Positions 9,057 to 34,548 of a stretch of DNA of 62,763 bases are shown here, piece after piece. Within the stretch, counting starts at the first letter, position 1, and every line of letters begins with the position of its first letter. Under the pieces are notes generated by a model. That model was not told the DNA's origin and made no database searches. It saw nothing but the letters and a program-made list of their open reading frames with translations. A program made the translations under genes and the position numbers. The DNA lies in assembly GCA_017415515.1 (NCBI GenBank), contig JAFQGI010000029.1:1-62763 (forward strand), in the 5' to 3' direction. The stretch is from Clostridia bacterium (lineage in GTDB: Bacteria > Bacillota > Clostridia > Oscillospirales > Acutalibacteraceae).

Positions 9057-9133
9057 CTCCCTCCGTCACGGCTTCGCCGTGCCACCTCCCTCGGGGAGGG
9101 AGGCTACGCTCTGCGACCACCTCATCCGTCACC
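9057..9133. repeat. Intergenic palindromic repeat element
   Basis: This holds the inverted repeat CACGGCTTCGCCGTG (9067-9081), then CCTCCCTCGGGGAGGGAGG (9085-9103), then CGACCACCTCATCCG. The final block in reverse complement (GGATGAGGTGGTCG) matches the end of the element at 44845-44898, so both belong to one modular repeat family. Otherwise 8921-9209 holds nothing I can support. Confidence 0.65.
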
Positions 9134-9209
9134 TTTAATCCGCCCTTTGATCGGATCTGTTGCTTTACGAGGATTCGGTGCAGAAAATCGGCAGATGTGG
9201 TCCAACGGC

Positions 9210-11899: not shown

Positions 11900-14458
11900 T
11901 TATTGATCGTAGCTGCGGTTGACAATGTCGCCATAGACCACAATCTCCTCGCCGTCTTTTTCAAAGACGTAATAAGGGCGAGCGTAGATTTGGGTAGTCG
12001 TGTTTGCCAACGGCACGTTGACCACACGCACGGCAAACCGACAGCCGTCATCCGACACGTCCCACAGATACTGCACCGGCACGTTCGCCACCGTATCGTT
12101 GTTGACGGCGTCAAGGGTCATCGCGCTGCTATCCTTGCCGATGGCGGCCTGATTGGTGATCACCGCACCCATCCGCAACAGAGGATACGCACGCTCATCC
12201 TCATAGGGGTTCACCGTCGCAGAGGATAGATTCACCCGATGGCGATTATCCATATAGATACGGTTGCCCTGCAACTCCATCAAAAAGGCAACACCCAAGC
12301 GGGCGGTGCTATCCTCCGGGATCAGGCGGAAATTGTCCACATAGACATCCTCTACCACACCGTTGCCGCCGCCACACAAATTCAGCACCAGAGAGGTGTC
12401 CCCCTCCACCGTAAAGGTCTGGGTCACATAGGTCCACGCGGTGTTGCTGATCCATTCGTAGGCGTATTGCGTGCCGGTGGTACTGCCCTTGAGGGTCGCG
12501 TTGGCACCGCTACGGTTCGCCTTGTACCGGTAGGTCAGGGTATAGGTCTTGCCGTCCGCCACGGGGATGTTTACCTGCTCCAACATGGCACCCCAGGTGC
12601 CGTCACCCTTGAGGTGGGCACCGTAAGAGCCGCCATAAGCGGCATCGGCAGACAGGACGGTCTGCTGATAGACATCCCAGCCCGCCAAAGAGCCTTGCTC
12701 AAAGTCGCCGTTGGTCAGCGGGGTTTCGCCGCCGCTCATTTCCATCACGCTGGTGTTGGTGCCGACGGGTTTGAGGGTAGGCTGGCCCTCGGCAGGGGCG
12801 ACAGCGACACCCTTGGCGGTCTCAAACAGCCGCACGTTGTCCATCTGCACCTGACCGCCACCGTCCACGATGGCAAAACCGATGCGGGAATAGGCACCGC
12901 TGTTAAAGGTGATGGAGTAGGTCACCCAGTCGCTATCGGTCGTGTTGAACGAGATGGTGTAAAACTCCTTGGGCGCGTCGTAATCGTCATCCAGCAGAGC
13001 AATACGACCGCTGCCGGACACCAAACGCTTTACATCTAGCGTAAGGGTATAGGAGGTGTTGGGGGTCACGTCGATCCAGTTGATGTAATGCAGTTGCCGC
13101 TCCGTATGCGCGGAGGCGGTATATTGCAGCATCGCGCCGTGGCTGTCCCCCACGTCGGCAAAGGACAAAAAGCCGTTGCGCCAAGCGGGGTTGTCCGACC
13201 AAGACAAACGCGCGTCGTTGGTGGTCATATAGATGCCCTCGATGAGGGAATCCGCATCGGCACAATACTTGTTGCCGCTGTTGTTGCCGGCGGTCAGCGT
13301 TTCGGTGCGCAGAGGGCTGATGTGCTCCACGCCGTTGGAAGATCGGAACAGGGCGATGTCGTCCAAATATAGCTGACTCTCGGCACCATAGACAGCGACG
13401 TTGACCGTGGTGTGGGAGCCGGAATAAAAGGTCACCGACCGTAGATGCCACGCATCGTCCGGGGCGGTCGCCATCAGCTGCATCGTCTCGGTGGAAATGG
13501 AGGCGGCACCGTGGCCGTTGCCGTTGTACGGCTCGTACACCAAAAACTTGCCGGTGGCGGCGTTCACCACGCCAAACGTAGCGGTGGCGCGGTTATTCTC
13601 GCTCAAACGCGGAGCTTTCACCCACGCGGAGAAGGTGTACTGGGTGTACGGCTCCACCGACACCGCAAAGCTGTGCCATGCCGCCGTCTGCACGTCGGAG
13701 CTGTCGAAATAGAGGCTGTGGTTGCCCTCGGGGGCGGTGGGGTCCTCCACCACCTGCACGCCACCGGACAAAAAGCCGGAGGTGTTCCACTGGGCATTGG
13801 CAGTAGCCTCGAAGCCACCCTGTTTAATCAGGTTGGAGGCGGCATCCTTGGGGCGACCCATCTTGGTGCCGAAGGAGGTGAGATAGGGCGCCATCTCGGT
13901 GGTGTCGCCTCCTTCGGAGGTGACCACCAGATTATCAATGTAACAGGGTGTGCCACCGTTGCCACCGGGGCAGAATTTCAGAGTAATGGCGGTATAATTG
14001 CCGCTGTTGAAGGTATAGGAAATCTGTTGCCAGGTGGAAATGCTGTCACATCCCGTGGGCTTGGCAAAGGATTTGTCGGCGCTGCTGTACGTGCCGGTGT
14101 TGGTGTCCGCCCCCTGATAGGTGAAGACGTGGTACAGATTGCTGCCGGGGTCGGAAGCATAGCGATAGTAAAAAGACACCGTAATGGTGGCGTTTTTGCG
14201 CACGGGAATGGTCTTGTACGCCGCGCCGCTGTAAGCGGAGGTGGCGGTGAGTTTCAAAGAATAGCTGCCGCTGTACACCGTGGCGGTGTCGATGGCGCCG
14301 TTTGCCACCTCCCAACCGTTGGTGTTGCCCAGCTCCAAATCGCCGTTGGCCGCCAGATTATCGGCGGCGGTGACGGTAGGGGCGGCAGGAAGCACCAACA
14401 CCATAGTCAGCAGCAGGCTGAGGAATACCAGAGGAACGATGATCTTCATTTTCTTCAT
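11900..14458 (-). CDS. Secreted multi-CBM protein without a catalytic domain
   Basis: An 852-residue exported protein. The signal peptide covers about residues 1-32. Four jelly-roll-type modules resembling CBM4/9/16 follow, roughly at 33-185, 205-375, 393-545 and 575-725, each opening with an N-G-D/S-F-E-type turn and a later YTL/YTF motif. A C-terminal domain of about 125 residues ends in YARPYYVFEKDGEEIVVYGD. Modules two and three are clearly homologous to the paired modules in the three large glycosidase-like proteins nearby. No membrane anchor is seen. It lies 15 bp after the second glycosidase-like gene, so the two are probably co-expressed and may act as separate catalytic and binding halves. 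Confidence 0.8.
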   Translation of the reverse strand: MKKMKIIVPLVFLSLLLTMVLVLPAAPTVTAADNLAANGDLELGNTNGWEVANGAIDTATVYSGSYSLKLTATSAYSGAAYKTIPVRKNATITVSFYYRYASDPGSNLYHVFTYQGADTNTGTYSSADKSFAKPTGCDSISTWQQISYTFNSGNYTAITLKFCPGGNGGTPCYIDNLVVTSEGGDTTEMAPYLTSFGTKMGRPKDAASNLIKQGGFEATANAQWNTSGFLSGGVQVVEDPTAPEGNHSLYFDSSDVQTAAWHSFAVSVEPYTQYTFSAWVKAPRLSENNRATATFGVVNAATGKFLVYEPYNGNGHGAASISTETMQLMATAPDDAWHLRSVTFYSGSHTTVNVAVYGAESQLYLDDIALFRSSNGVEHISPLRTETLTAGNNSGNKYCADADSLIEGIYMTTNDARLSWSDNPAWRNGFLSFADVGDSHGAMLQYTASAHTERQLHYINWIDVTPNTSYTLTLDVKRLVSGSGRIALLDDDYDAPKEFYTISFNTTDSDWVTYSITFNSGAYSRIGFAIVDGGGQVQMDNVRLFETAKGVAVAPAEGQPTLKPVGTNTSVMEMSGGETPLTNGDFEQGSLAGWDVYQQTVLSADAAYGGSYGAHLKGDGTWGAMLEQVNIPVADGKTYTLTYRYKANRSGANATLKGSTTGTQYAYEWISNTAWTYVTQTFTVEGDTSLVLNLCGGGNGVVEDVYVDNFRLIPEDSTARLGVAFLMELQGNRIYMDNRHRVNLSSATVNPYEDERAYPLLRMGAVITNQAAIGKDSSAMTLDAVNNDTVANVPVQYLWDVSDDGCRFAVRVVNVPLANTTTQIYARPYYVFEKDGEEIVVYGDIVNRSYDQ

Positions 14459-14473
14459 AGCGTCATTCCCCCT

Positions 14474-16420
14474 TTACTGCATCTCGTAGAGCTCTACGTC
14501 GTCGATATAGGTGTGGGTGCCAGCCACCACGCGGAAGTCGATGCAAAGTGTGGTGGTGTCGCCGGTGCGCAGCGAGATGGTGTCCTGCCGCCACTCGGTG
14601 GTGTTGCCGCCGTTCATATATGCTTGACCGATGATGGTGCCGTCGATGGTGCCTCCCTCGCGGACAAAGCAATAGCAGTTGTTGGCGGTATCGTCGGCGG
14701 CGTGCTTATAGTAGTAGGTCAGGGTGTAGTTGGTGTTGGGCTGGACCGAAATCGACACCTGATTGACACCCTCCCACTCCACACTGCCATAATCCAGCTC
14801 TAAGCTGTAAGAGCCGGTGTGAGCGGTGGCGGCGGTGGCCTGATAGGTGCCGTTGGAACCAAACTTGACCCAGTTGGTCAAGCCGTTTTCAAAGCTGTGA
14901 TTTTGCACCAGATTGACAGCGGGCGGCACGATCTCCGCCACATTGGAAACAGAGGTCGCCGCCGTGCTGTCGGAGGTGGCGGTGACGCGGTATTGCACCG
15001 TGCCGCTGGCGGGCAGGGTGGTGTCCTTGTAGACGTACTTGCGGCCGACGCTGTCCACCGTGGCGCCGGAGGTGGCGATGGTGACCCAAGCGCCACCGTT
15101 GATAGAGCGCTCCAGCTTGTAGGTGTGGGACTGGGTGGGTTTGATCCACTCCACCGTGCCGTTACCCTCATTAAAGAACATCGTCGGTGTGTTGAGGGCG
15201 AGGCTCTCGCCGCGATGGTCGGCACGGTATTCCTCGATGTAATCGTGAATCTCATACGCCACCAGACGGAAATCGGTGACGGCACCGTCTTTCGCAATCA
15301 AATCATAGGCGCTGCCGCCGGCATTCGGCTGCCAGCACCACATAAACCAGCCGCTCCATCCTTTGGCACGGAAATTGTCGCGGAATAAGAGTTGGGCGCT
15401 CACCATTTCGTCCTCGGAGGGATATTTGCCATCGCCCAGACCAAACTCGGTGGCCAGCATCGGCAGAGGAGAACGGAACTTGGAGATGTCGTCTGCCGAG
15501 GCGTGGGCGTTGTATTCCTGATGGCCGAGGAAGGTCAGATCGGTCTCGGAATACATAGTCATATTATCGGTGCTGCCGCAGAGGGTGCGATCCACATTGG
15601 GAAGGCACTCTGCCAGCGTGTCCGCCACCTTGTTAACGAAATACAGCATACTCTCGCGGGTGACGCCGTAGGTTTCGCGTTGTTCGGTGAAATTGCCCAT
15701 GTCGGGATCGTGCATCTCATTCTCCACCTCAGAGGTGGCGGCGCACATCACCACCACGTCGGGGTACTCCGCCAGCATAGCGCAGAGGGGCTTGACGAAC
15801 CGCTCGGCGTAGTGGTCCGCCACCTCCTTGACCGCATACATCTGGGTCATACGGTACCAAACTTCCAGGTTGTAGTAGGACACGGCGGAGGTCGAGTGAC
15901 AGCACACCGTCCACAAAACAGGCATCTCCGCCTCACGGCAGATGTCCAAAAAGCGGCGGGCGTTGTCCAGATACTCCTGCTTGATGCCGACGACGTCACC
16001 GGTGTCGTCAAACACCACACCCTCGGCGTAGATGGAGCCCTCATAGCCCATGATGTTAAATCCCAGAGCTTTGAGATTATAGATCTGCTCCAACAGGTAT
16101 TTGTCGCTGTATTGGTCGATGCCCACCGTGGACCAACTGTCGCTCACGTACTTCACCATGGTTTCGTTGGCGGTAAAGCCGTGGCCCAAATTGTCGTGGG
16201 TCAGCCAAGGGAACCAAATGCCCTCCAAATAGCCGTCACGCTCCAAAATGTCCGCCACCGCCAAGGCGGTGGGATAAGCGGACACAGCCTGCGGCGCAGG
16301 CGCCGCATCGGGGACAGAGGTGTTGTTGGTGTCGCCCTGCACCAACAACACGCCCACGGTGGTGGCCAGCACGGCCACGGCGCACAAAAGGGGCAAAAGG
16401 AGGTTGCGTGCCAGTTTCAT
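14474..16420 (-). CDS. Secreted glycosidase-like protein GH-2 (TIM-barrel, FN3, CBM)
   Basis: A 648-residue exported protein with an N-terminal hydrophobic signal or anchor (about 7-27). Residues 55-400 form a TIM-barrel-like domain paralogous to three others in this window: GIWFPWL, MGYEGSIY, ADHYAERFVKPL, then TSEVENEM (E231/E233/E235) and ATEFG (E325). The two glutamate positions fit the acid/base and nucleophile of clan GH-A retaining hydrolases, but I cannot name a CAZy family. A fibronectin-III-like domain (about 405-500) and one CBM-like module (about 505-648) follow. Unlike its paralogues it has no Thr/Pro linker and no C-terminal membrane helix; the CBM pair is in the next gene. Confidence 0.75.
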   Translation of the reverse strand: MKLARNLLLPLLCAVAVLATTVGVLLVQGDTNNTSVPDAAPAPQAVSAYPTALAVADILERDGYLEGIWFPWLTHDNLGHGFTANETMVKYVSDSWSTVGIDQYSDKYLLEQIYNLKALGFNIMGYEGSIYAEGVVFDDTGDVVGIKQEYLDNARRFLDICREAEMPVLWTVCCHSTSAVSYYNLEVWYRMTQMYAVKEVADHYAERFVKPLCAMLAEYPDVVVMCAATSEVENEMHDPDMGNFTEQRETYGVTRESMLYFVNKVADTLAECLPNVDRTLCGSTDNMTMYSETDLTFLGHQEYNAHASADDISKFRSPLPMLATEFGLGDGKYPSEDEMVSAQLLFRDNFRAKGWSGWFMWCWQPNAGGSAYDLIAKDGAVTDFRLVAYEIHDYIEEYRADHRGESLALNTPTMFFNEGNGTVEWIKPTQSHTYKLERSINGGAWVTIATSGATVDSVGRKYVYKDTTLPASGTVQYRVTATSDSTAATSVSNVAEIVPPAVNLVQNHSFENGLTNWVKFGSNGTYQATAATAHTGSYSLELDYGSVEWEGVNQVSISVQPNTNYTLTYYYKHAADDTANNCYCFVREGGTIDGTIIGQAYMNGGNTTEWRQDTISLRTGDTTTLCIDFRVVAGTHTYIDDVELYEMQ

Positions 16421-16455
16421 TCAAACACATCCCTTCGGGTGTTATTCTGTTCAAT

Positions 16456-16484
16456 AATGTACCATAAAAGCAGAACATTGTAAA
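16456..16484 (-). promoter_or_regulatory. Possible internal promoter before GH-2
   Basis: TTTACA (16479-16484) and TACATT (16456-16461) on the minus strand with 17 bp spacing. It lies just after the hairpin at 16493-16520, so GH-2 and the CBM protein may form their own transcript. Confidence 0.45.
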
Positions 16485-16492
16485 GAGGACAG

Positions 16493-16520
16493 AGAGGCCG
16501 CAGAGACGTCTGCGGCCTCT
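16493..16520 (-). terminator. Intercistronic hairpin after GH-1
   Basis: A perfect 12-bp stem (AGAGGCCGCAGA) with a 4-base loop. It is followed by a mixed C/T stretch rather than a clean T run, so it is either a weak terminator or a transcript-stabilising hairpin separating the glycyl radical operon from GH-2. Confidence 0.55.
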
Positions 16521-16531
16521 CATCCTATCCT

Positions 16532-19500
16532 TTACACCTGCTTCTTCTTACGCAAAATGAGGAACAGCGCCACGCCCACGCCAATCAGCAGGACGCCGCC
16601 GCCGATACCCACATACAGCCACGGGAAGGCCTTGGGCTGTTTTTGGGTGCCTGCACCCGTTGGCTTTTTATCCTTGTCGGGAGCAGAGGTGGAGGTGTTC
16701 TTCTCCTGAGAGGGGTCAGAGGACGGCGCGAGGGTAGGATCGGTGCCCTCCCCCTGGGAAGGATCGGTAGTCACGGTCGCAGAGGGGTCGGTAGACGCAG
16801 AGGAAGAGCCCGTGGTGGTGTCCTTAGAGGGGGTGACGGAGCCGTTCCCCGAGGGACGCGCCGTAGCGGTGGGAGGTGTCCCCGTGCCACCGGTGTTGGG
16901 ATCCTTATAGGTGTCGTCTCCCTTAATGCCGTCGGAGGTCTTAAACAGACGCAGGTTGTCGATGAGGGCGGAGCCGCCGCCATCCACCACGCCCACCGCC
17001 AGTCGGTTAAAGCAGCCGGTGTTGAGGCGGAAGCAGATGGTGAACCAATCGTCACCAAAGCTGTCGCCGTCAAACTCCACCGAAATGATCTCCGCGGGAT
17101 CTCTCATTTTGCCATCCAGCAGAATGAGACGGCCTGCACCGCTTTTCAGCACCTTGACGTCCACCGAGAAGGTATACCAGGTGTTCGGTTGCACGTCCAC
17201 ATAGCGCAGATAGTGCTGACCCACCGGATTGGCGGTGGCGGTGTATTTCAGAGATTTGCCATACTCATATTTGTTGTTGGCGATGCTGAGGAAGCCGCTG
17301 TCCCAGCCGCTGCCACCTTTCCAGAAGGTGGTGCTGTCAAAGGTGGGATTTTTGAACAGGCTGTTTTTCTCGGCACAATAGGCATACTCCGCGTCAAAGC
17401 GGGTGGCAACCATATGCGACATGTTGTCGCTGACGTATTTGGTGCCTTCGCCGTTTTTATACAGCGCCAAACCGTCCACCCACATCTGCGAGGAGCAACC
17501 GTAGAGGGCGATGCCCACCTTGGTGCGGTTGCCGCTGTTAAAGGTGACAGAGCGCAGATGCCACGCCTCGTCCCAGCCGGGAGGCACGATCTGCTTGCCA
17601 TGGGTGAAGAAGGGAAACTTTCCGCTGATATAAGGAATAAATTGCTTGGTTTCGCTGTCCACCACGCCGACGGTGGCCCAGCCACGGTTGTCGGCCGACA
17701 GGTGGGCACCCTTCACCCACGCGGAGAAGGTATAATCGGTGTTTTTCGCCACGTCCACCCACACAATATGCCAGTTGGCGGTGGTGGTTTTGGAGGTGTT
17801 GAAATACAGGCTCTTGCTGCCCTCGGGGGCGGTCTTGTCGGACACCACCGACAGCACGGAGGAGGTAGTGAAACCGCCTGCGGAGGACTCAAAGCTACCT
17901 TCTTTCAGCAGATTGGACTCGGCTTTGGCGGGACGGTTGTGCTCGGCGCTGACAGCGGTGAGCAGCATCGGAACGACAGGGCTCACCTTCTTCAAATTCA
18001 AGGGATAGTTGCTCAAATTATAGGTCTTTTCCTCGTTGGTGCCGCTGTATTTCGTGTTGAACTGACTGCAATCAGATGCCTTGTTGGACACCTGCGAGGA
18101 TTTTTCGTTGCCCTTGCCGTCCCGCACCACAATTTTATATACCGTGTTGGCGGTGGGGGTCTCCTCGCTCAGGCATTGCATCTTACGACCGGCATTGGTG
18201 GAGGAAATCTTTTTGTTATCCTCCTCTTTGATCCAGGTCTTGCCGCCGTCGTCCGAGCGCAAGAAGTCGTAATAGGCCGTCTGACGGGGAGCGATCCACT
18301 CCACCATACCGTTGCCGGTGTTGCAGAAGAGTTGGGGGGTATCCAGCACCGTCTTGTCGCCGCGATGGACGTCCCGCTGCTCTTCAAAGTAGTGGTACAG
18401 CTCGTAGGCGGTGTCACGGAAATCGGTGACGTTCTTAGCACCCTTTTTCAGCAGGTCGTAGGCACTGCCGGAGGTGCTGTTGGAAGACCAACACCACATA
18501 AAACAGCCCTTATAGCCGGCCTGGCGGAAATTCTTGCGGAACGTAAGCTGCAGACGGGTCAATTCGTCGTCGGCATAGCTCAGATCGTCGCCCAGACCGA
18601 ATTCGGACACGATCATGGGAACGGGAGAACGGAAGCCCTCAATCGGAGCGCTGTTTCCCGCCCAGTTGTAGTTCTGGTCGCCCAAAACGTCGAAATCCAC
18701 CTCGGAATACATCGACATATCGTTCAACTGGCAACAAATGGTACGGGGCACCGCGGGGAACGCCGCCTTCACCGCCTCGGTGACGGCGTTGACGAAATAG
18801 AGCATATTCTCCTGGGACACGCCGTACAGATCGCGGTCACTGCCGAACTGGTTGCCCACCAAAGACTCGTTCATCTCATTCTCCGCCTCGGAGGTGGAGG
18901 CAACCATCGCCACCACGTCGGGATATTCCGCCAGCACCTTGGCCAAGGGCTTGACAAACCGCTCGGCGTAGTGATCCGCCACCACAGGATCGGCATAGAA
19001 GCGGGTGGCCATATCCGAAAACGCCTTGCCGTTGGTGTAATAGTGGTTGACAGAGGAGGTGTGGCAGCACACCGTCCACAGCACCGGCATTCCCACATCG
19101 CGGCAGATATCCAGCAGGCGACGCACATTGTGCAGATACTCCTTCTTGATGCCGATAACGTCGCCGGTGTCGTCATAGATAACGCCTTCGCCGTAGATCG
19201 AGCCTTCATAGCCCATCATATTGTAGCCCAAGGATTTGAGATTGTAGATTTCCTGATAGATCTTCTCCGTGCCGTATTCGTCAATGCCCACCTTGGAGAA
19301 ATCGTACCAGCAGTTGGTGCCGCCGCTCCAACCGTTGAGCCATTGGGCCGCCAGCTCGTTGCTGGTGAGGCCGCAACCCAGATAGGTGTGGGTCAGCCAA
19401 GGGAACCAAATACCCTCGATGAAGCCGTCACGCTCCAAGATCTTCTCCATCAGGGTGGTTTCGCTGCGGTGAGGCAGAGCTTTCCCTGCCGACACCGGCA

Positions 19501-19579
19501 GAGCGCTCAGCGGCACCATCGCCGCCAGCAGCGCCACCGCACACAGCATGGTGATTAGTTTTACACTCCATTTACGCAT
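16532..19579 (-). CDS. Surface-anchored glycosidase-like protein GH-1
   Basis: A 1015-residue exported protein, last gene of the glycyl radical operon. Modules in order: signal peptide (1-31); TIM-barrel-like domain (about 40-420) with GIWFPWL, TSEAENEM (E231/E233/E235) and VSEFG (E326); FN3-like domain (about 425-520, with SDDGGKTW); two CBM-like modules (about 570-720 and 735-890); a Thr/Ser/Pro/Gly linker; and a C-terminal membrane helix ending in LILRKKKQV. There is no LPXTG motif, so anchoring is by the helix. The glutamates suggest a clan GH-A type retaining hydrolase of unassigned family. It lies 34 bp after GRE-1, which ties an extracellular enzyme to cytoplasmic radical enzymes. Confidence 0.8.
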   Translation of the reverse strand: MRKWSVKLITMLCAVALLAAMVPLSALPVSAGKALPHRSETTLMEKILERDGFIEGIWFPWLTHTYLGCGLTSNELAAQWLNGWSGGTNCWYDFSKVGIDEYGTEKIYQEIYNLKSLGYNMMGYEGSIYGEGVIYDDTGDVIGIKKEYLHNVRRLLDICRDVGMPVLWTVCCHTSSVNHYYTNGKAFSDMATRFYADPVVADHYAERFVKPLAKVLAEYPDVVAMVASTSEAENEMNESLVGNQFGSDRDLYGVSQENMLYFVNAVTEAVKAAFPAVPRTICCQLNDMSMYSEVDFDVLGDQNYNWAGNSAPIEGFRSPVPMIVSEFGLGDDLSYADDELTRLQLTFRKNFRQAGYKGCFMWCWSSNSTSGSAYDLLKKGAKNVTDFRDTAYELYHYFEEQRDVHRGDKTVLDTPQLFCNTGNGMVEWIAPRQTAYYDFLRSDDGGKTWIKEEDNKKISSTNAGRKMQCLSEETPTANTVYKIVVRDGKGNEKSSQVSNKASDCSQFNTKYSGTNEEKTYNLSNYPLNLKKVSPVVPMLLTAVSAEHNRPAKAESNLLKEGSFESSAGGFTTSSVLSVVSDKTAPEGSKSLYFNTSKTTTANWHIVWVDVAKNTDYTFSAWVKGAHLSADNRGWATVGVVDSETKQFIPYISGKFPFFTHGKQIVPPGWDEAWHLRSVTFNSGNRTKVGIALYGCSSQMWVDGLALYKNGEGTKYVSDNMSHMVATRFDAEYAYCAEKNSLFKNPTFDSTTFWKGGSGWDSGFLSIANNKYEYGKSLKYTATANPVGQHYLRYVDVQPNTWYTFSVDVKVLKSGAGRLILLDGKMRDPAEIISVEFDGDSFGDDWFTICFRLNTGCFNRLAVGVVDGGGSALIDNLRLFKTSDGIKGDDTYKDPNTGGTGTPPTATARPSGNGSVTPSKDTTTGSSSASTDPSATVTTDPSQGEGTDPTLAPSSDPSQEKNTSTSAPDKDKKPTGAGTQKQPKAFPWLYVGIGGGVLLIGVGVALFLILRKKKQV

Positions 19580-19613
19580 AACTTTTTCCTCTCTTTCATA
19601 TGGTGATTGCTTA

Positions 19614-21827
19614 TTACAAAGAATCCAAGAAACGATCCACCACCAGTTGGCGGAATTCGGGAGACAAACTCACAAAATAGGCGGTGAAGCCGGTCACCCG
19701 CACCACCAAATCGGGGTAGCGTGTCGGGTCGGCGTGGGCCGCTTTGAGCTTTTCGCCGTCTAAAATATTGATATTGATGAGGGTGCCGCCTTGCTCGAAA
19801 TGGGAACGAATGAGCCGACAGACACGCTCCGCGCCCCCCTCCTCCGCCGTGAGGTGAGGGTCAAACTCCAACTGTAAGGGGGCGGTGTTGCCGTAGCCGC
19901 ACTGGACGGAGGCGATGCCGTTGGATTGAGCGGTGGCCGCACCGTCGCGACGAAAGCCGGGGTTAGGGTTGGCGCCGTGGGAAATGGGCTCTCCCGCCCG
20001 TCTGCCGTTGGGGGTGGCTCCCACCGCCGCGCCGAAATCCAGCGTCAGCGCCCACGAAAACCAGCCGGGGATGAGTTGACGGCCATCGGGCATAGGTTGC
20101 GCCTTAATGTGCCGCACCCAACTGTCGGTGAGCCGCCGCGCCCATTCATCCGACACGGTACCGCCCTGACAGTAGCGAGGGGCGGACTGCATCATCGCGT
20201 GAATTCGCGGATCGGCAAAATCGTTCTCTAAGGCTTCGAAAAGCTGCGCCCAAGTGAGCACCTGTTCCTCCTCGATGCGGGTGGTGATGGCTCCCAAAGA
20301 GTCCGCCACCACCGCCAAACCGGCGCCGTCCACACCGATGGAATAGAGCGACGCGCATTGGGAGATGTCCTCTCCCCGTTCGATGGTGTTTTCCATCATC
20401 AGATTCATCACCAGCTCGGGGGTGACCTCCCACTGGTGATCGATGTGCAGGTTGACACCTGCCGCCACCGTCTCCACCGCCTGCTTGAGGTGGGCTTCGT
20501 ACAGGGCAAACAGTCTTTCCGTCGAGGGATCTTCCTCTTTTCGTAAATCGGCAAGCGCCCATTCGAACACCTTGGCAATATTGATCTTCACCACGTCGTT
20601 CATGGGAAATTCCTTGCCCGGGACACACATCCAGTTGCATCCCACCGCGATACGGGCATTGGCATCGGCGTGGGAATAGCCGTTGCGCTCATATCCTTCG
20701 GTCAAGGCCTTATCGCCGCAGAAGCGGGGCCAGCCGTTTTTGTTCTTAAACAAGTACCACACCGCTTTTTCGAGAAAAGCGGGATCACAATTTTCGTGCA
20801 CCCGCACGGTGAGATTGGCGGCGATATTCAATGCGTCCGCCGCCTCCAGCACCAGATAAGACAGGTGACAGGTCAGGTCGTTGCCGTCCACATCCACACC
20901 CGACAACTGGTAATATTGCGGGTCGTTGAGCAACAGATCCGCCAACAAAAACACCGTCTTTTCATCGTCTATGCGGCCTGCGGCGACATCCGCCTCATAG
21001 TAGGGGCGCAGAAGGGTGTCCAGCTGGAAGCCTGCACCGTCACGGGTGTAGATACGGGAGGCGATGTTGAAATACACCACCCACTGACACGCCTCGTGGA
21101 GGGTCCGGGGCGGTTCGGTAAGCACCCGCCGATTGACCTCCAGCATTTCCTCCAAACTCACCCGCAGGTCGGGGTCGGTTTCAGCGGCCAACATCTCCTC
21201 GATCGCGACGATGTGCCGTGCAATAAAATCCTGTATAGCCCGCACCACCCGTTCCTCCGCATCGTAGAAGGCAGTTTTATCGGGATTCACCTCACGATAA
21301 TGGGCGATCTTCGTGAGCAGACCGCCGAAGCCGAGGGAAAGACCGATGCGGTAATCGCAACACAGATGGGCGTCGCTGTCGATGCCCGAGGTGATGTTGT
21401 ATTTTTCCTGCAACGGCTTTAAGTGGTCGTAGGGGAAGCGCTCCTCGTCCCAGCATTTGCTCCACAGATCGGTGGTGTCCTCGTCAAAGTTCTTTTGGGT
21501 CTCGTCCTCCTTCATCCACGCAGGGCGGAAGAGGCGATTGCCGCGGTAATTGACCAGCATATCCCGCCAACGACCGCAGAGAAGCTCCATGGGGTCCACG
21601 TAAGGCGGATGGGCCGCCATCACGCGGCAAAAGTTTTCGCACATACCGTCGTAGCCGTAGAAGCTGCCGTTTTGGCTGTTGTACCACGGCCGGACGCGAT
21701 AGCCCTCGGGCAACGGAACGGTGCCGAAGTCGTCCATATCCACGTAGCCGTTTTGCTCCTTCTTTTGCAAGGTCTGTTCAATTTTCCTGCGGCGCAAAGC
21801 CGCCAAGCGGTCGGCGTAGGTCAGCAC
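19614..21827 (-). CDS. Glycyl radical enzyme GRE-1, atypical active site
   Basis: A 737-residue member of the pyruvate formate-lyase-like superfamily, which uses a glycyl radical and an active-site cysteine thiyl radical under anaerobic conditions. The C-terminal glycyl loop is VVRVTGFTAYF with G713 as the expected radical site. The active-site loop reads AVGCNWMCVPG (C397, C401). It lacks the C-x-E of the dehydratase group (glycerol, propanediol, choline, hydroxyproline enzymes) and the adjacent CC of pyruvate formate-lyase. Start is GTG after GGAGGTGAGAGTGT. It lies 6 bp after the activase gene. Substrate is unknown. Confidence 0.9.
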   Translation of the reverse strand: MLTYADRLAALRRRKIEQTLQKKEQNGYVDMDDFGTVPLPEGYRVRPWYNSQNGSFYGYDGMCENFCRVMAAHPPYVDPMELLCGRWRDMLVNYRGNRLFRPAWMKEDETQKNFDEDTTDLWSKCWDEERFPYDHLKPLQEKYNITSGIDSDAHLCCDYRIGLSLGFGGLLTKIAHYREVNPDKTAFYDAEERVVRAIQDFIARHIVAIEEMLAAETDPDLRVSLEEMLEVNRRVLTEPPRTLHEACQWVVYFNIASRIYTRDGAGFQLDTLLRPYYEADVAAGRIDDEKTVFLLADLLLNDPQYYQLSGVDVDGNDLTCHLSYLVLEAADALNIAANLTVRVHENCDPAFLEKAVWYLFKNKNGWPRFCGDKALTEGYERNGYSHADANARIAVGCNWMCVPGKEFPMNDVVKINIAKVFEWALADLRKEEDPSTERLFALYEAHLKQAVETVAAGVNLHIDHQWEVTPELVMNLMMENTIERGEDISQCASLYSIGVDGAGLAVVADSLGAITTRIEEEQVLTWAQLFEALENDFADPRIHAMMQSAPRYCQGGTVSDEWARRLTDSWVRHIKAQPMPDGRQLIPGWFSWALTLDFGAAVGATPNGRRAGEPISHGANPNPGFRRDGAATAQSNGIASVQCGYGNTAPLQLEFDPHLTAEEGGAERVCRLIRSHFEQGGTLININILDGEKLKAAHADPTRYPDLVVRVTGFTAYFVSLSPEFRQLVVDRFLDSL

Positions 21828-21833
21828 ACACTC

Positions 21834-22610
21834 TCACCTCCGTTGCAATCGTGCGCAGGCATTTAACAATGCCATTTGCTCTTTGGTGGGCTCGGGAAAG
21901 CGGGGCATAGCCAACCCCATCGCCCGCGCCTTATCCAACCCGAAGGGATGATAAGGGAGCAATTCGTAGCCCACGGCATTTTTTAAAGATCTCACAAAAT
22001 CACCAATGGCGGTGATCTCCTCCACCGTGTCGTTGACGGTGGGGACGATGGGGGTGCGAATAAGGATCGGCACCCCCAAAGCATCCGCCTTGCGGATGTT
22101 TTCGATAATGGCGGCGTTGCCCACGCCGGTGTATTCCCGATGGCGGGCGTCGTCCCACAGTTTCACGTCTGCCATGATCAGGCTCATCTGCGAAAGCAGA
22201 TCGGGGCGGTAGAGCGCCATTGAGGTTTCGATGGCAACACCGATGCCCGCCCTGCGGCAAGCTTCGGTGAGTGCCAAGGCAAAATCCGCCTGCATCTGAG
22301 GCTCACCACCCGTCAGGGTGACACCCCCCTCGGCGCCGTAGTAGGGTTTATCGGCCAAGATGGGAACCATCACTTCGTCTATCGACATCTCCCGACCGCA
22401 CAAAGAGCGGGCACCGGTATAGCACCCATCGGCACAGCCGCCGCAGGAGATGCACTTTTCGGGATAGAACAATTCCTGTGGCGCTTTGTCCCAGCTCTCG
22501 GGATTGTGACACCACCGACAGCGCAGAGGACAGCCTTTGAAAAACACCACGGTGCGAATGCCGGGGCCGTCGTGCATACCACTGCGCTCGATATCAAAAA
22601 TCACAGCCAT
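21834..22610 (-). CDS. Glycyl radical enzyme activase (radical SAM)
   Basis: A 258-residue PflA-like enzyme that cleaves S-adenosylmethionine to put the glycyl radical on its partner. The radical SAM cluster motif is GCPLRCRWC (C27, C31, C34). The GGEP SAM-binding motif is at 101-104. Between them is an insert with one ferredoxin-type CxxCxxCxxxC set (C53, C56, C59, C63) and C71; the usual activase insert carries two such sets, so this one is reduced. It sits 9 bp after GRE-2 and 6 bp before GRE-1 and is the only activase here, so it presumably serves both. RBS GAGGTGGCGCT overlaps the GRE-2 stop. Confidence 0.95.
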   Translation of the reverse strand: MAVIFDIERSGMHDGPGIRTVVFFKGCPLRCRWCHNPESWDKAPQELFYPEKCISCGGCADGCYTGARSLCGREMSIDEVMVPILADKPYYGAEGGVTLTGGEPQMQADFALALTEACRRAGIGVAIETSMALYRPDLLSQMSLIMADVKLWDDARHREYTGVGNAAIIENIRKADALGVPILIRTPIVPTVNDTVEEITAIGDFVRSLKNAVGYELLPYHPFGLDKARAMGLAMPRFPEPTKEQMALLNACARLQRR

Positions 22611-22619
22611 AGCGCCACC

Positions 22620-24767
22620 TCAATACAAGGTGCGAGCCAACAGCTCTTTTTGCACCACGGGGTTGAGATCCACAAAACGGGCGGAAAAGCCGCCCACACG
22701 GACGATGAGATGGCGGTATTTCTCCGGTTCGCGCATAGCCGCCTCCAAATCGCCGCGGGAAAGAACGGTAATCATCGCTTGGGCGCCACCCGCTTCAAAA
22801 TAGGTGCGCAACAAGGTTTTCAGATAAGGGCGGTGGGCGGTGAACATGGCCTTGGAAAAGCGCATATTCTGCACTGCGCCCGCGTGGAGGTGGGTGTCGG
22901 GCTTGGCCAGCGAGTTAAGCATAGCGGTGACACCGCAGGTGTCCCGACCGCTCATGGGATTGTTGCCGTTGGCCATATACTCCCCTGCGTGTCTGCCGTC
23001 GGCAGAGGCGCCGGTGCCCTGACCGAAGACGGCGTTGAGCTCGTTGTTGATCAGCACCGCCAGATAGGAATCCAGCCCAGCGGCAGGGGCGCAAGCGCGG
23101 ATACGGGTGCACACATCGCGGTGCAGGCGGCAGAACATTCCGTCCGCATCGGGGTGGTCGTTGCCGTATTTGGGCTGGGCAAGCAACAACTGCCGCAGAC
23201 GCTCCCGCCCCGCAAAATCGGAGGCAAGGGCATCGGACACTTCCTGCGCCGTCACCAGCTTTTGGTCGTATACCACCGCCTTGACGGCGGTGAGGGCATC
23301 GGCGGTGTTCACGTTGCCGTAATTCTCAACCGTGCCGCCCAAATGGCGCAGACCACCCGCCAAAACCGCCTTTCCACGCTCTATGCAATCGTCAAAGAGC
23401 AGGCTGTAATACAAGAAAGGACACTCCTGTCCCACTACGTCATATTCTAATTTCTCCTGCAACGAGAGGCAAGTGGCAATCTTTTCCACTTCGGTAAGAT
23501 AAGCGGTGTAAAACGTCTCAAAATCGGGGGCGTCGAGGAAAAGATGGGCGTTTTTGCCGTACATCGCCTCGTTCAGCACAAACAGCGTGTTGACCGTGCC
23601 GCTGGGGGTGCCGATGCTCTGATTATAGAGCACGTATTCGCCGCAACCGTAGGGCACGTAGTTTTGTGCCGTGTCCTCGTCCACCCCAAAGGCGTCCATC
23701 ACCGCGGGAATATTCACCCTGTCGTTATACAACATCGGGAAAGTCGTTCCCTTACCGATGGTATCCAGCGCCGCCTCGTACAGGCGGGGATCCATTCCCT
23801 CGTAGCACCGCAGGGTGAGCTGCGGCACAACGCCGCGACGGCGGCGGGTGGCCTCCATGGCCAGCAAAGCGAAGGTGTCGGCCCCCTCGGGGCGGTCGGC
23901 ACCGCCCAAAATCACGCGAGAGTCAAAATATTCCCCCCACTCCTCCATGCGACACCACAGATCTTCGACCCACCGCAATGCCTCCGCCTCTGTGAGGCGG
24001 TCGGCGGCCAAGTCGGCGGCCAGATAGGGTCCTAAATACTGATCCATACGCCCGTAATTCCACGTACCGGACAGCACGAAAAAGATATAAGATAGCTGCA
24101 ACGCTTGGGTAAACGTACTGGCAGGATGGTGGGCGATATGGGAGAGGTCGGCGGCAAGGGCGAGGTTGCCCAGCATCTCCGCCTCGGCGGCATAGCGCAG
24201 GCACACCTCGGAGAGGATATCCAAGGCCTGAATCAGGCCGTTATAAAAAGCGGGATTGTTCTCTTTCTTCTCTTCACAAAGAGCCGCCAACCCCTCCACG
24301 CCTAAGGTCAGCAGGCGGGTGGGATCCATCTGGATGCCGCTGATGCGATAAAGGCCGTGGGCGGCGGTGGGGGTGGTATACGGCACGTTATGTGCGAAAA
24401 TATCCAACCAGCCGTCGGGGTAGGCGGCGGCAACCTTGGCGGCGGTGTTCTCTGTCTGCCAAAAAGCAAACAGAGCGTCTGCCTCTCCCCTCTCCTCGTC
24501 GGTAAGGGTTCCGTCATTGACGGCGGCAGACCAGGAAGGCTCGTGGATATAATAGCCCACGCCGCCGTGGCACTGGGGACGAACCCCTAAGGGCAGGCGG
24601 AGGTTACGACCTGCCACCAGATCCCCTTCCCGCAACGGTTGCAGGGCGTGGGCAAACTGCAGACGCAGGCAATCCGCCTCACGGGCATAGACGTTTGGGG
24701 CAGAGCGATACCGCCGCGTAAACTCGGCGGCATACGTTAACAACTCCTTACCCGTCACGGCGATCAT
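22620..24767 (-). CDS. Glycyl radical enzyme GRE-2
   Basis: A 715-residue pyruvate formate-lyase-like protein, first gene of the operon and only distantly similar to GRE-1. The glycyl loop is IVRVGGFSARF with G693 as the likely radical site. The active-site loop is VPYGCGEYVL: C375 with E377 two residues later, i.e. a C-x-E arrangement like the dehydratase group (normally GCVE) but with Gly between. That favours water elimination or a related C-O or C-N cleavage, without naming a substrate. The frame's ATG directly abuts GAGGGG; a GTG three codons later (24758) has better spacing and may be the true start. Confidence 0.9.
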   Translation of the reverse strand: MIAVTGKELLTYAAEFTRRYRSAPNVYAREADCLRLQFAHALQPLREGDLVAGRNLRLPLGVRPQCHGGVGYYIHEPSWSAAVNDGTLTDEERGEADALFAFWQTENTAAKVAAAYPDGWLDIFAHNVPYTTPTAAHGLYRISGIQMDPTRLLTLGVEGLAALCEEKKENNPAFYNGLIQALDILSEVCLRYAAEAEMLGNLALAADLSHIAHHPASTFTQALQLSYIFFVLSGTWNYGRMDQYLGPYLAADLAADRLTEAEALRWVEDLWCRMEEWGEYFDSRVILGGADRPEGADTFALLAMEATRRRRGVVPQLTLRCYEGMDPRLYEAALDTIGKGTTFPMLYNDRVNIPAVMDAFGVDEDTAQNYVPYGCGEYVLYNQSIGTPSGTVNTLFVLNEAMYGKNAHLFLDAPDFETFYTAYLTEVEKIATCLSLQEKLEYDVVGQECPFLYYSLLFDDCIERGKAVLAGGLRHLGGTVENYGNVNTADALTAVKAVVYDQKLVTAQEVSDALASDFAGRERLRQLLLAQPKYGNDHPDADGMFCRLHRDVCTRIRACAPAAGLDSYLAVLINNELNAVFGQGTGASADGRHAGEYMANGNNPMSGRDTCGVTAMLNSLAKPDTHLHAGAVQNMRFSKAMFTAHRPYLKTLLRTYFEAGGAQAMITVLSRGDLEAAMREPEKYRHLIVRVGGFSARFVDLNPVVQKELLARTLY

Positions 24768-24793
24768 CCCCTCACAAACAAGATTCTATTTTC

Positions 24794-24799
24794 AGTATA
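24794..24799 (-). promoter_or_regulatory. -10 box of the glycyl radical operon promoter
   Basis: TATACT on the minus strand, 27 bp before the GRE-2 start. No acceptable -35 hexamer lies 16-18 bp upstream (AAGAAA at 17), as expected for a promoter that needs an activator. The divergent AraC protein is the obvious candidate. Confidence 0.55.
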
Positions 24800-24823
24800 A
24801 AGCGGTATATTGACCATTTCTTC

Positions 24824-24852
24824 TTGACTGTTGATATTTTATGTGGTATTTT
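24824..24852 (+). promoter_or_regulatory. Promoter of the divergent AraC gene
   Basis: TTGACT (24824-24829) and TATTTT (24847-24852) with 17 bp spacing, about 20 bp before the AraC start. Confidence 0.55.
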
Positions 24853-24859
24853 GATATTT
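24831..24859. promoter_or_regulatory. Candidate AraC-type operator (direct repeats)
   Basis: TTGATATTT occurs at 24831-24839 and again at 24851-24859, a 20-bp period, which is about two helical turns. AraC-family proteins often bind such tandem half-sites. The repeats lie just upstream of where the GRE operon -35 should be and overlap the araC promoter, so activation of one and repression of the other is possible. Confidence 0.5.
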
Positions 24860-24872
24860 GGGTGATCAATCA

Positions 24873-25724
24873 ATGAATCAACTACGTAAACAAGAGGTGT
24901 TCCCCTATTTGCAATTCCACTCGCGCCGCACACGCTTGGCGGAGGGATTGGAGAATTCTGCACCTCATTATCACGACTTCTACGAAATCTTTTTGGTGGA
25001 GGAGGGCCCGCTGTTGCACCATGTCAACGGTGCCTGTGAGACCGTCTATCCCGACACCATGGTGTTCATCCACCCGGAGGATCAACACTTTTTCTCCCGC
25101 AAGGATAAGGGCGCGGTGCAATTCTTCAACCTCGCCTTTGCCAAAGATCAGTTTGACAGAGCCATGGAGCTGGCGGCACAATGCACCCCCGAGGTGATCG
25201 GCCGCCCCTTGCTGGACAAGGTGGTGCTCCCCCACGAGCTGAGCCGTCTGCTGCTGCGGCGGATGAAATGGCTGCGGGACGTAAACAAGTGGGTGCCGCT
25301 GGCGGTGCAAGAGGCGGAAGGCGTCACCCTGCTGGCCGAGCTCATCGTGCTGTTTGCCTTGGGCAGCGGTAACGCCCACATCGTCCCATTCTGGCTGCGC
25401 AAGGCCTGCGACGCCATGTATTTCCCCGAAAATTTGGCAGCCGGCATCCCCCGCCTGGTGGAGCTTTCCGGCAAGACCCAAGAGCACGTCACCCGCAGCA
25501 TGCGCAAGTATATGGGGCAATCCCCCTCCGGCTTTATCAACGGCATACGGCTGGAACGGGTCGCGGAGGCGCTGACCTCCACCAACCGCCCCATCTTTGA
25601 CATTATGCTGGACGTAGGGTTCCAAAACACCAGCCATTTCAACAAGCTGTTCAAAGAAAAATACCATATGTCTCCCCGCAAATACCGCGCTTCGTCCATG
25701 AATATCCTTGGTCAGATGGAATAA
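24873..25724 (+). CDS. AraC family transcriptional regulator
   Basis: A 283-residue regulator with an N-terminal cupin-like sensing domain (SAPHYHDFYEIFLVEEG, typical of sugar-responsive AraC proteins) and a C-terminal double helix-turn-helix (about 185-275) containing IFDIMLDVGFQNTSHFNKLF. I choose the ATG at 24873, with a weak GGGTGAT site upstream, over a TTG 15 bases earlier. It is transcribed away from the GRE-2 gene across a 105-bp gap and its stop overlaps the ribosome site of the transglutaminase-dockerin gene. Position suggests it controls both directions in response to a glycan-derived ligand; the ligand is not known. Confidence 0.9.
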   Translation: MNQLRKQEVFPYLQFHSRRTRLAEGLENSAPHYHDFYEIFLVEEGPLLHHVNGACETVYPDTMVFIHPEDQHFFSRKDKGAVQFFNLAFAKDQFDRAMELAAQCTPEVIGRPLLDKVVLPHELSRLLLRRMKWLRDVNKWVPLAVQEAEGVTLLAELIVLFALGSGNAHIVPFWLRKACDAMYFPENLAAGIPRLVELSGKTQEHVTRSMRKYMGQSPSGFINGIRLERVAEALTSTNRPIFDIMLDVGFQNTSHFNKLFKEKYHMSPRKYRASSMNILGQME

Positions 25725-25737
25725 GGAGGATTTCACC

Positions 25738-28125
25738 ATGAAAACAACCCGTAAACTTGCCGCTTTGCTGGCCGTTGCCAGCCTACTGCTCACCCTGTGG
25801 GCGCCGCTGTCCGTTTCCGCCGAGCAACCCGCCCTGACGGTTGCGGAGCAGCCAACGGAAACGCCGTTTTATTTCGGACGCTCCGTCTTGGCCCAAATGG
25901 AAAACGGCGAAGCGCTGTGCTATGCCTATGACAGGCTGGTGGCAGGCAGTGAAAGCCTGTCCAAAACCATCGACATTTCCCACCGCACCCACCGCATCGA
26001 CTCGAACGAAGCCTCCCTCGTGTGGCAGGCGGTGACGGCAGACCACCCCGAACTCTTTTGGTTGGCCGACGGCATGAGCATGCAAGGCTCACCCAGTTGC
26101 GTCACCGCCTTCGTCCCCCATTTATACGACGGCATCCGGGAGCTTCGCATCGCCCTGCAAAATCGCGTGGCCGAGCTGACCGCCGATCTGGCCGACAAAA
26201 GCGACTATGAAAAAAGCCTCATTCTCCACGACCGTGTGTGCGACGCGGTGGTGTATCAGTTCTCCGCCCACGATCAGACCGTTGTGGGCTCCTTGTTGGA
26301 GGGTGCGTCGGTGTGCGCCGGCTATGCCCGTGCCTATCAACTGCTGATGCAGACGGTGGGCATCCCCGTCTTTATTGTCACCGGCTATTCCAGAGGAGAA
26401 AACCACGCCTGGAACCTGGTGCAGCTGGACGGCGAATGGTATTACACCGACGTGACCTGGGACGACCAAAACGATCAGGGCGGACACGTCTTCTATGCCT
26501 ATCTCAACCTGACTTTTGACCGTATGGAGGAAGACCACACCTTCCTATCCTTTGTGGAATATCTGCCCAAATCCACCGCCACCGCCGCCAACTATCACGT
26601 GAAAAACGGCACCCTGATGGCGGAGCCCGACATCGACATAATCGCCGCCCTCTATCGTTCCGGCGGCATCGTTCGTGTGGGCGCAGACGGCAGCGTGAAC
26701 GATTTTCTCAGCGCGCTGAATCAGCGGATGGGCGAGCTTGTCACCGCCATCGCCTGCCCTTATTCCGGGTGTCAGGGCAGCTTCGCCTACAACGGTCACG
26801 AGATCATTCTTATGCTCACCGTGACCAAGCCCCACGTGTATAAAAACCATAGCAACACCTGCTCCGACTGCGGCTACACCTTCGTTGCAGACCACCACTA
26901 CGAGGTATCCGTCGTGGAGCCCACCTGCACTCAGATGGGCAAAACCACCTACACCTGCACCCTTTGCGGTGACAACTATTTCGAGATGATCCCCGCCTTG
27001 GGTCACGACTATGACGCCGTGGTGACCGCCCCCAACTGCGAACAGGGCGGCTACACCACCTATACCTGTGCCGTCTGCGGCGACAGCTATGTGGGCGACC
27101 ACGTGGACGCGGCAGGCCACCACTATGACAAAACGGTCACCAACCCCACCTGCGACACCCCCGGCAAAGCGGTGTACACCTGCGCCGTCTGCGGCGACAG
27201 CTATACCGAGGCCATCCCCGCCCCGGGTCACAACTACGTACCCACGGTGACCGCCCCCGATTGCGAACACAACGGCTACACCACCTATACCTGCTCCGCC
27301 TGCGGCGGCAGCTATATCGACGCGCTAACCGATCCCTTGGGTCACAACTACGTGCCCAAGGTGACCGCCCCCGATTGCGAACACGGCGGCTATACCACCT
27401 ACACCTGCTCCGCCTGCGGCGGCAGCTATATTGACGCGCTAACCGATCCCTTCGGTCACAACTACGTGCCCGTGGTGACCGCCCCCGATTGCGAACACGG
27501 CGGCTACACCACCTATACCTGCACCGCCTGCGGCGGCAGTTACGTAAGCGACACCACCGCTGCGCTGGGTCACCACTACGTACCCGTCGTCACCGTCCCC
27601 GATTGCGAGCACAACGGCTACACCACCTACGTCTGTTCCGCCTGCGGCGGCAGTTACGTGAGCGATCCCACCGCTGCGCTGGGTCACCACTACGAATCCG
27701 TCGTCACCGCCCCCACTTGCAGTGCCGACGGCGAAACCCTATACACCTGCACCCACTGCGGTGACAGCTATGCCGAGGTCATCCCCGCAACGGGACACGA
27801 TATGACCTGGTGGCAGGACGACACCCACCACAAGCACTACTGTCTTACGTGCGGTCTGGTGGCCGACCACAGCGAGCACGCCTATATCGGTAACACCTGT
27901 CAGGCTTGCGGCCACACCAAGGCCGAGGAGATCCTCTATGGCGATGCCAACCGCGACGGCAAAGTGAACAACAAGGACTTGGCCGGCTTGCAGCAATATC
28001 TGGCCGACTGGGACGTGACCATCGATACCGTCGCCTGTGACGTCAACTGCGACGGCAAGGTGAACAACAAGGATCTGGCCCGTTTACAGCAGTATTTGGC
28101 CGACTGGGACGTGACCCTTGGATAA
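25738..28125 (+). CDS. Secreted transglutaminase-like protein with CxxC repeats and dockerin
   Basis: A 795-residue exported protein. After a signal peptide (1-28) comes a transglutaminase-like domain with the triad motifs GASVCAGYARAY (Cys), NHAWNLV (His) and DVTWDD (Asp). Then eight tandem 37-38-residue repeats carry paired cysteines (YTC-x-x-CG) and a GH(N/H/D)Y motif. The C-terminus is a type I dockerin: GDANRDGKVNNKDLAGLQQY and a second calcium loop DVNCDGKVNNKDLARLQQY. The dockerin implies docking to a cohesin scaffold encoded elsewhere; no cohesin is seen here. AAGGAGGA overlaps the araC stop, so it is co-transcribed with the regulator. The first domain may be a protease or crosslinker. 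Confidence 0.87.
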   Translation: MKTTRKLAALLAVASLLLTLWAPLSVSAEQPALTVAEQPTETPFYFGRSVLAQMENGEALCYAYDRLVAGSESLSKTIDISHRTHRIDSNEASLVWQAVTADHPELFWLADGMSMQGSPSCVTAFVPHLYDGIRELRIALQNRVAELTADLADKSDYEKSLILHDRVCDAVVYQFSAHDQTVVGSLLEGASVCAGYARAYQLLMQTVGIPVFIVTGYSRGENHAWNLVQLDGEWYYTDVTWDDQNDQGGHVFYAYLNLTFDRMEEDHTFLSFVEYLPKSTATAANYHVKNGTLMAEPDIDIIAALYRSGGIVRVGADGSVNDFLSALNQRMGELVTAIACPYSGCQGSFAYNGHEIILMLTVTKPHVYKNHSNTCSDCGYTFVADHHYEVSVVEPTCTQMGKTTYTCTLCGDNYFEMIPALGHDYDAVVTAPNCEQGGYTTYTCAVCGDSYVGDHVDAAGHHYDKTVTNPTCDTPGKAVYTCAVCGDSYTEAIPAPGHNYVPTVTAPDCEHNGYTTYTCSACGGSYIDALTDPLGHNYVPKVTAPDCEHGGYTTYTCSACGGSYIDALTDPFGHNYVPVVTAPDCEHGGYTTYTCTACGGSYVSDTTAALGHHYVPVVTVPDCEHNGYTTYVCSACGGSYVSDPTAALGHHYESVVTAPTCSADGETLYTCTHCGDSYAEVIPATGHDMTWWQDDTHHKHYCLTCGLVADHSEHAYIGNTCQACGHTKAEEILYGDANRDGKVNNKDLAGLQQYLADWDVTIDTVACDVNCDGKVNNKDLARLQQYLADWDVTLG
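26911..27816 (+). repeat. Tandem 111-114 bp repeats inside the dockerin gene
   Basis: Eight in-frame units start near 26911, 27022, 27136, 27247, 27361, 27475, 27589 and 27703. The middle ones are nearly identical at DNA level (GACCGCCCCCGATTGCGAAC). Such units can expand or contract by recombination. Confidence 0.85.
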
Positions 28126-34495: not shown

Positions 34496-34548
34496 ATTCA
34501 CAGTCGCTCCTTTCGTAAATTCCATTAACGGATTTTACAGTCATAATC

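Follow-up and report, generated by a model that had tools for sequence, protein, structure and literature searches.

Reactions of glycyl radical enzymes (GREs) leave their mark on the chemistry of the gut, trimethylamine and p-cresol being examples, and a large number of abundant GREs have no known function (PMC11574389). Published GRE eliminases (glycerol/propanediol dehydratase, CutC, HypD, and IslA) harbor a Cys-x-Glu (CXE) motif at the Cys loop. Pyruvate formate-lyase is characterized by an adjacent Cys-Cys pair. Carbohydrate-acting GREs of the gut include PflD and YbiW, which cleave 1,5-anhydromannitol- and 1,5-anhydroglucitol-6-phosphate in a pathway that starts with the phosphotransferase system (PMC12441222). 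Finally, the C-deglycosylation (dgp/dfg) clusters encode DgpA and DgpC, proteins of the Gfo/Idh/MocA and xylose-isomerase-like kinds, and the portion of their description consulted names no GRE (PMC8563793). Here, we analyze a 62,763-nucleotide stretch of DNA (contig JAFQGI010000029.1; hereafter, the window) from a Clostridia bacterium of the Acutalibacteraceae, which is one contig of a 1.5-Mb metagenome-assembled genome (MAG) that is 68% complete (genome G000). Sheep and goat guts are the source of the nearest relatives of this bacterium. The window encodes on its minus strand, in this order, a CXE-type GRE (GRE2), a single radical S-adenosylmethionine (SAM) activase, a second GRE with Cys-x-Trp (CXW) at the Cys loop (GRE1), and an anchored glycosidase-like protein (GHa), with gaps of 9, 6, and 34 bp as calculated from the gene coordinates. 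We interpret this locus as a hybrid operon, specific to its lineage, that serves anaerobic sugar catabolism and in which the CXW-type GRE1 would act on a sugar derivative and would share its activase with GRE2; we give this reading about an even chance, with the sugar assignment taken from gene neighborhoods and the reactions inferred.

Both proteins possess the features of the GRE superfamily, namely, a PFL-like barrel followed by a C-terminal Gly_radical domain, a Gly loop, and a catalytic Cys. In these traits, as in overall fold and in having a radical-SAM activase gene next door, they resemble the GRE eliminases. In GRE1, the Cys loop reads GCNWMCVPGKE (C397) and the Gly loop RVTGFTAYF (G713); the corresponding loops of GRE2 are YGCGEY (C375) and RVGGFSARF (G693), with G713 and C397 of GRE1 aligning to the same columns as G693 and C375 of GRE2. 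Neither Cys loop (CNW in GRE1, CGE in GRE2) is of the Cys-Cys type of pyruvate formate-lyase. GRE2 has the CXE motif in common with the eliminases, as do all 15 GRE2-family rows of the alignment (a fragment at locus L090 excluded), whereas GRE1 differs: Cys-x-Trp is found in 50 of the 50 GRE1-family rows that have the loop, a count that includes one duplicate (L148) and excludes three C-x-E rows (22–26% identity) and one loop-less fragment. GRE1 shares 18 to 24% aligned identity with the GREs of known structure among the matches listed (ribonucleotide reductases and a lone pyruvate formate-lyase large domain left out), and CXW is found in none of the five best of these alignments, those being the ones inspected. 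The structures closest to the GRE1 model by Z score include those of PflD (35.8 and 35.5, tied with others), which shares 21 to 22% identity with GRE1 and has CVE rather than CNW at the Cys loop. Every NCBIfam GRE model scores under its cut-off for both proteins: pyr_form_ly_1 gives 58.5 and 73 bits for the two GREs against a cut-off of 994.2, and among the models for CutC, HypD, HpsG/HpfG, HPAD, and indoleacetate decarboxylase, the best scores are 200.6 bits (GRE1) and 180.7 bits (GRE2) against a cut-off of 1000. We therefore rejected assignment of either GRE to a known GRE function, and a first-pass annotation of this DNA is borne out in that its two radical enzymes differ in type and neither falls in a characterized family. 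Four further CXW-type GREs (loci L045, L046, L160, and L161) are only 27 to 28% identical to GRE1, such that the CXW class may exceed the GRE1 family; those in L045 and L046 adjoin aldose 1-epimerase genes, and L045 also encodes a weakly L-fucose-isomerase-like protein.

To place GRE1 in the context of its relatives, we collected GRE1-family matches at E 1e-60, which occur in 13 of 300 genomes of the taxonomic family and 31 of 391 genomes of the class. The class search returned 39 places, of which 20 neighborhoods were fetched, with at least two close ones (G370:C499 and G311:C11) left out. Neighboring genes were labeled (GFO, XI, ACT, AraC, BPD, SBP, and GHx) with hidden Markov models built from BLAST clusters, whose representatives were identified by Pfam. 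This analysis yields 18 GRE1 loci (65–72% identity; the closest pair 84% identical), not counting the three loci with the hybrid operon or L148, a duplicate of L024. In 17 of these 18 loci, GRE1 has Gfo/Idh/MocA dehydrogenase genes no more than 6 kb away, and in eight it has xylose-isomerase-like genes at such a distance; in 16 loci, dehydrogenase and GRE1 genes form an unbroken same-strand run, often with overlaps of 4 to 17 bp, as exemplified by the order Gfo-isomerase-Gfo-Gfo-activase-GRE1. GRE1 relatives thus adjoin the same protein kinds as DgpA and DgpC; such proteins are not among the 30 window proteins scanned. The sole close locus without Gfo, L028, encodes two SLH surface proteins, one with a CBM_4_9 domain, directly before activase-GRE1 (2274–9208). 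Some more distant GRE1-family loci contain ABC transporters with solute-binding proteins and pairs of histidine kinase and AraC-type response regulator, and the GRE1 relatives, with their Gfo/Idh/MocA genes and occasional ABC transporters, differ here from the phosphotransferase-initiated PflD/YbiW pathway. Ten large GRE1-neighbor proteins were scanned, and four contain glycosidase domains: GH2 (L026), GH39-like (L029), GH10 (L152), and GH65 (L151). GH38 is found in L038 by Pfam and in L031 and L047 by similarity. Since the GRE1 family is encoded among sugar-processing genes elsewhere, GRE1 probably takes part in plant-sugar digestion through a reaction of unassigned type. Within the fetched stretches of the 18 loci, no GRE2-family gene is labeled within 6 kb of GRE1, and no GHa-type glycosidase barrel is found.

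Two loci provide a separate case of two GREs per activase, with tandem CXW-family GREs next to one activase gene (L038, 5797–11160; L043, 2666–6912). The L038 pair adjoins the GH38 alpha-mannosidase gene; in L043, the contig stops within the second GRE, and two frames share the activase between them. In L027, an unlabeled 166-residue frame (9476–9976) occupies the place of the activase between Gfo and GRE1; it may be a disrupted activase gene or a fault of assembly.

GRE2 relatives have other neighbors. They are found at E ≤1e-50 in 30 of the 300 family genomes, and we fetched the 13 closer neighborhoods (E ≤1e-100), the L090 fragment being counted in totals of 13 and not in those of 12. An activase gene lies beside GRE2 in 9 of 13 loci and an adjacent AraC gene in 6 of 13; Gfo is found within 6 kb in 1 of 12 (at most 2 of 13, since L083 is labeled Gfo in one scan only). 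Genomes G095 and G135 harbor both GRE families in different places, with an activase at each locus. A tree of 37 activases puts the window protein in a well-supported group whose 12 members all belong to GRE1-type units or the hybrid operon; the nine GRE2-type activases branch elsewhere, eight of them divided between two other groups and the ninth (L087) with more remote GRE1-type activases. The six best matches to the window AraC protein, aside from those in the two other loci with this operon (L020 and L021; see below), are all encoded beside GRE2 relatives. The grouping of the activase with the GRE1 type and of AraC with GRE2 relatives points to two source units, and on these comparisons the predicted operon is a lineage-specific hybrid of an AraC + GRE2 unit joined to an activase + GRE1 unit. 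Missing from the window operon are GRE2's own activase and the Gfo/Idh/MocA and xylose-isomerase-like genes usually found upstream of GRE1. A search with the window activase at E 1e-5 recovered no second activase in G000 (68% complete) or in the congeneric MAG G297 (85% complete), each of which has the window-type activase once. Because GRE2-type activases match that of the window at E ≤1e-43 (32–38% identity), one would probably have shown up if recovered, and the single activase annotated for the operon holds for the recovered parts of both genomes.

Of the 13 loci returned by a scan of genome contigs with GRE1, only those of two further MAGs, L020 (GRE1 90% identical) and L021 (81%), keep the AraC-GRE2-activase-GRE1 order, L021 belonging to G297. 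Its retention in three MAGs is not chance, and members of the same glycosidase family lie beside the operon in both, including a GHb-type gene ≈60 bp after GRE1 in L021. Five genomes were searched within the genus: GRE1 co-occurs with the glycosidase family in G000 and G297, and the other three (G027, G153, and G235) yielded neither. Among the 13 scan loci, seven have titles that name sheep, goat, deer, or buffalo gut and one more has “Lapin.” The gene order sought by the first-pass annotation thus recurs with glycosidases alongside, and its further idea that the GREs are wired to surface glycosidases is not supported as a general system. Beyond these three MAGs, neither GRE is accompanied by glycosidases of this family, the very finding that the annotation had named as refuting its scheme; among the window and 61 fetched loci, the barrel occurs only in the window, L020, and L021, and only in 3 of the 300 family genomes, own genome included. 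We therefore rejected GREs plus glycosidases as a general conserved system, and what remains is a link to sugars in another form.

The glycosidase assignment itself comes from structure prediction. Pfam glycosidase families (PF00150 and others) have no match in GHa or its paralogs GHb, GHc, and GHd, and only CBM_4_9 is found at E 0.001. The predicted structure of the GHa-type barrel (predicted template-modeling score 0.87) is a GH5-like (beta/alpha)8 barrel that resembles GH5 mannanases, although it is only 17% identical to the GH5 beta-mannanases and, as noted, without a Pfam glycosidase match. Enzymes of clan GH-A have an acid/base Glu after strand 4 and a nucleophile Glu at strand 7, and E201 and E296 (modeled-domain numbering), invariant in 14 of 14 sequences, sit at these places in the model. 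The modeled barrel is thus of the clan GH-A, GH5-like glycosidase fold, and the label “glycosidase-like” holds. GHb + CBM-only pairs are also present in L102, L103, and L107, which are without GREs. On another contig of the window's own genome (G000 C7; L164, 5778–14444), a single run encodes Gfo, a xylose-isomerase-like protein, Gfo, AraC, a glycosidase-like protein, and a CBM-only protein. ABC permease genes lie near copies of the GHa glycosidase family in L178, L102 (G000 C33), and L180 (G297 C21), with L178 also encoding a solute-binding protein, a DUF5696 protein, and a Yip1/TPR/NHL protein and L180 a GH2 enzyme; the lack of a transporter in the earlier scheme is in this way partly filled.

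Features of the locus are collected in Table 1. The named genes are present in the annotated order and with the annotated spacing, and Pfam bears out their identities except for the glycosidase-like barrel. The terminator-like stretch at 16480 to 16535 has a folding energy of −36.5 kcal/mol (z −7.2), with none of 200 shuffles equally stable; its stem is the longest among 28 terminator-like sites in the region (13.8 in shuffles) and falls exactly at the end of GHa, with a promoter-like site behind it. Promoter-like sites number 10 in the region versus 6.6 in shuffles, and the GHb site alone is weak. The best-supported transcription unit is therefore predicted to be GRE2-activase-GRE1-GHa. GHb and the CBM-only gene follow in the order first annotated, but because the terminator-like stem intervenes, they probably form a separate unit rather than part of the same packed run, and we rejected the whole gene run as one operon.

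Table 1. Features of the GRE locus and its surroundings in the window (aa, amino acids; CBM, carbohydrate-binding module).
Feature	Position	Strand	Support
CBM-only secreted protein, 852 aa	11900..14458	-	three CBM_4_9 stretches
GHb, secreted and glycosidase-like, 648 aa; no membrane anchor seen by eye	14474..16420	-	
Promoter-like site ahead of GHb, TTTACA-17-TACATT	16456..16484	-	consensus scan
Terminator-like stem after GHa	16492..16521	-	13-pair stem; folding
GHa, anchored protein of 1015 aa, glycosidase-like and of GH-A type; ends the run ahead of the terminator	16532..19579	-	
GRE1, 737-aa GRE, CXW type	19614..21827	-	Pfam PFL-like and Gly_radical
Radical-SAM GRE activase, single	21834..22610	-	TIGR02494, 264 bits vs cut-off 174.35
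GRE2, 715-aa GRE, CXE type	22620..24767	-	Pfam PFL-like 2.3e-81, Gly_radical 2.6e-23
Divergent intergenic region AraC/GRE2, 90 bp	24768..24857		
AraC-type regulator, divergent	24858..25724	+	Pfam HTH_18, AraC_binding
Transglutaminase-dockerin protein	25708..28125	+	Pfam transglutaminase and dockerin
GHc, anchored paralog beyond the first-pass interval	28183..31245	-	barrel 42% identical to GHa barrel
GHd, anchored paralog beyond the first-pass interval	31382..34525	-	barrel 45% identical to GHa barrel

BLAST (E 1e-6) finds no counterpart of the transglutaminase-dockerin gene in the 61 fetched loci, including the two with the same operon; this gene is therefore probably a bystander, and we rejected it as part of the system. 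Five cohesin-domain matches elsewhere in the genome (G000 contigs C3, C8, C30, and C38) are potential dockerin partners and, together with the dockerin protein, suggest a cellulosome-like system. A phosphate propanoyltransferase (PF06130) is encoded far from the operon at 48825 to 49391, and no microcompartment family is named among the 30 window proteins scanned.

These features can be assembled into a working scheme. Anchored GH5-like enzymes would cut a plant beta-glycan outside the cell, and the products would be imported by ABC transporters whose genes lie elsewhere. These products may then be acted on in trans by sugar dehydrogenases and isomerase-like enzymes (e.g., those encoded on contig C7), after which GRE1 would carry out radical bond cleavage or rearrangement of the resulting keto- or anhydro-sugar, and GRE2, as a CXE eliminase-type enzyme, could take as its substrate a polyol-like metabolite that is related or arises later. 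Both GREs would receive their glycyl radical from the one activase. The operon itself may have originated when GRE2-type and GRE1-type units were joined, with a surface glycosidase added at the 3′ end. More broadly, and only tentatively, at somewhat less than an even chance, we propose that CXW GREs constitute a distinct sugar class that works with Gfo/Idh/MocA enzymes on a keto- or anhydro-sugar, which it would cleave or rearrange through a chemistry unlike that of characterized GREs, here combined with a CXE eliminase and a shared activase into a two-step radical route for surface-released plant sugar.

Two other accounts of GRE1 chemistry, and one of GRE2 activation, have to be weighed against this scheme. 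GRE1 might be eliminase-like and, in the manner of PflD and YbiW, take a leaving group off a sugar or anhydro-sugar, with a conserved D411 or E406 standing in for the missing Glu; given the Trp at the Cys loop of every GRE1-family row, we judge this somewhat unlikely. The same replacement of Glu by Trp would suit a radical C–C lyase or epimerase, in which a thiyl radical acts on a sugar C–H or on a Gfo-made keto-sugar without a Cys-loop general base, as would the dehydrogenases able to make a keto-sugar that are encoded in the GRE1 run of 16 of the 18 close relatives. GRE1 is, however, without the adjacent second Cys of pyruvate formate-lyase type, the nearby Cys 401 varies among relatives, and we regard such an activity as improbable. 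As for GRE2, it may no longer be activated, its activase lost and the enzyme drifting, or it may be served by an activase from an unrecovered part of the genome. That relatives so often carry their own, differently related activase, that only one was recovered here, and that both genomes are incomplete are all consistent with this account; against it, GRE2 is under purifying selection, with a ratio of nonsynonymous to synonymous substitution rates (dN/dS) of 0.145 versus L020 and 0.238 versus L021 (dS 0.86 and 1.18), its Cys and Gly loops are intact in three MAGs and like those of relatives, and the more complete congener likewise has a single activase. We consider it quite unlikely that GRE2 is inactive or otherwise served, and the lone recovered activase, purifying selection, and intact loops lead most naturally to the reading that a single activase would serve GRE1 and GRE2 alike.

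A further alternative dispenses with a common pathway altogether: GRE1 and GRE2 would act on unrelated compounds, and the glycosidases would adjoin them only because a gene family has dispersed across the genome in this lineage. The two GRE families are normally apart, the glycosidase family is a large paralog expansion on several contigs, and the transglutaminase gene, not kept elsewhere, shows that the region contains unconserved genes. However, the GRE2-activase-GRE1 order is found in three MAGs with glycosidases adjoining in all three, and GHa lies 34 bp after GRE1 and ahead of the terminator, which leaves independent functions an unlikely explanation, if one to be taken seriously. Several observations nevertheless weigh against the hybrid sugar operon that we favor. 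The many glycosidase copies on other contigs are without GREs, such that the adjacency of GHa could stem from a local expansion; the L020 contig stops past GRE1, and its two glycosidase genes lie on the other side, beyond AraC. GRE1 is missing from three of the five genomes searched in the genus, and six of the ten large GRE1-neighbor proteins have no glycosidase domain. At 68% and 85% completeness, the MAGs may lack a second activase. Finally, the Gfo proteins encoded on contig C7 share only 27 to 32% identity with their counterparts next to GRE1 relatives, and BLAST gives no significant match between the C7 isomerase-like protein and those of GRE1 loci, which limits the proposed trans link to the family level.

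Among the papers listed in a search of the open-licence PMC literature, with subscription journals outside its scope, there was no description of a GRE with Gfo/Idh/MocA partners, of a CXW loop, or of a hybrid single-activase operon. The novelty here is the CXW family, dehydrogenase partners included, together with the hybrid single-activase arrangement, more than the glycosidase adjacency. The hybrid operon offers a natural test case for whether a single activase is able to serve two GREs of different type, and an altered catalytic loop together with recurring Gfo-dehydrogenase operons in gut Clostridia points to radical chemistry in plant-fiber digestion.

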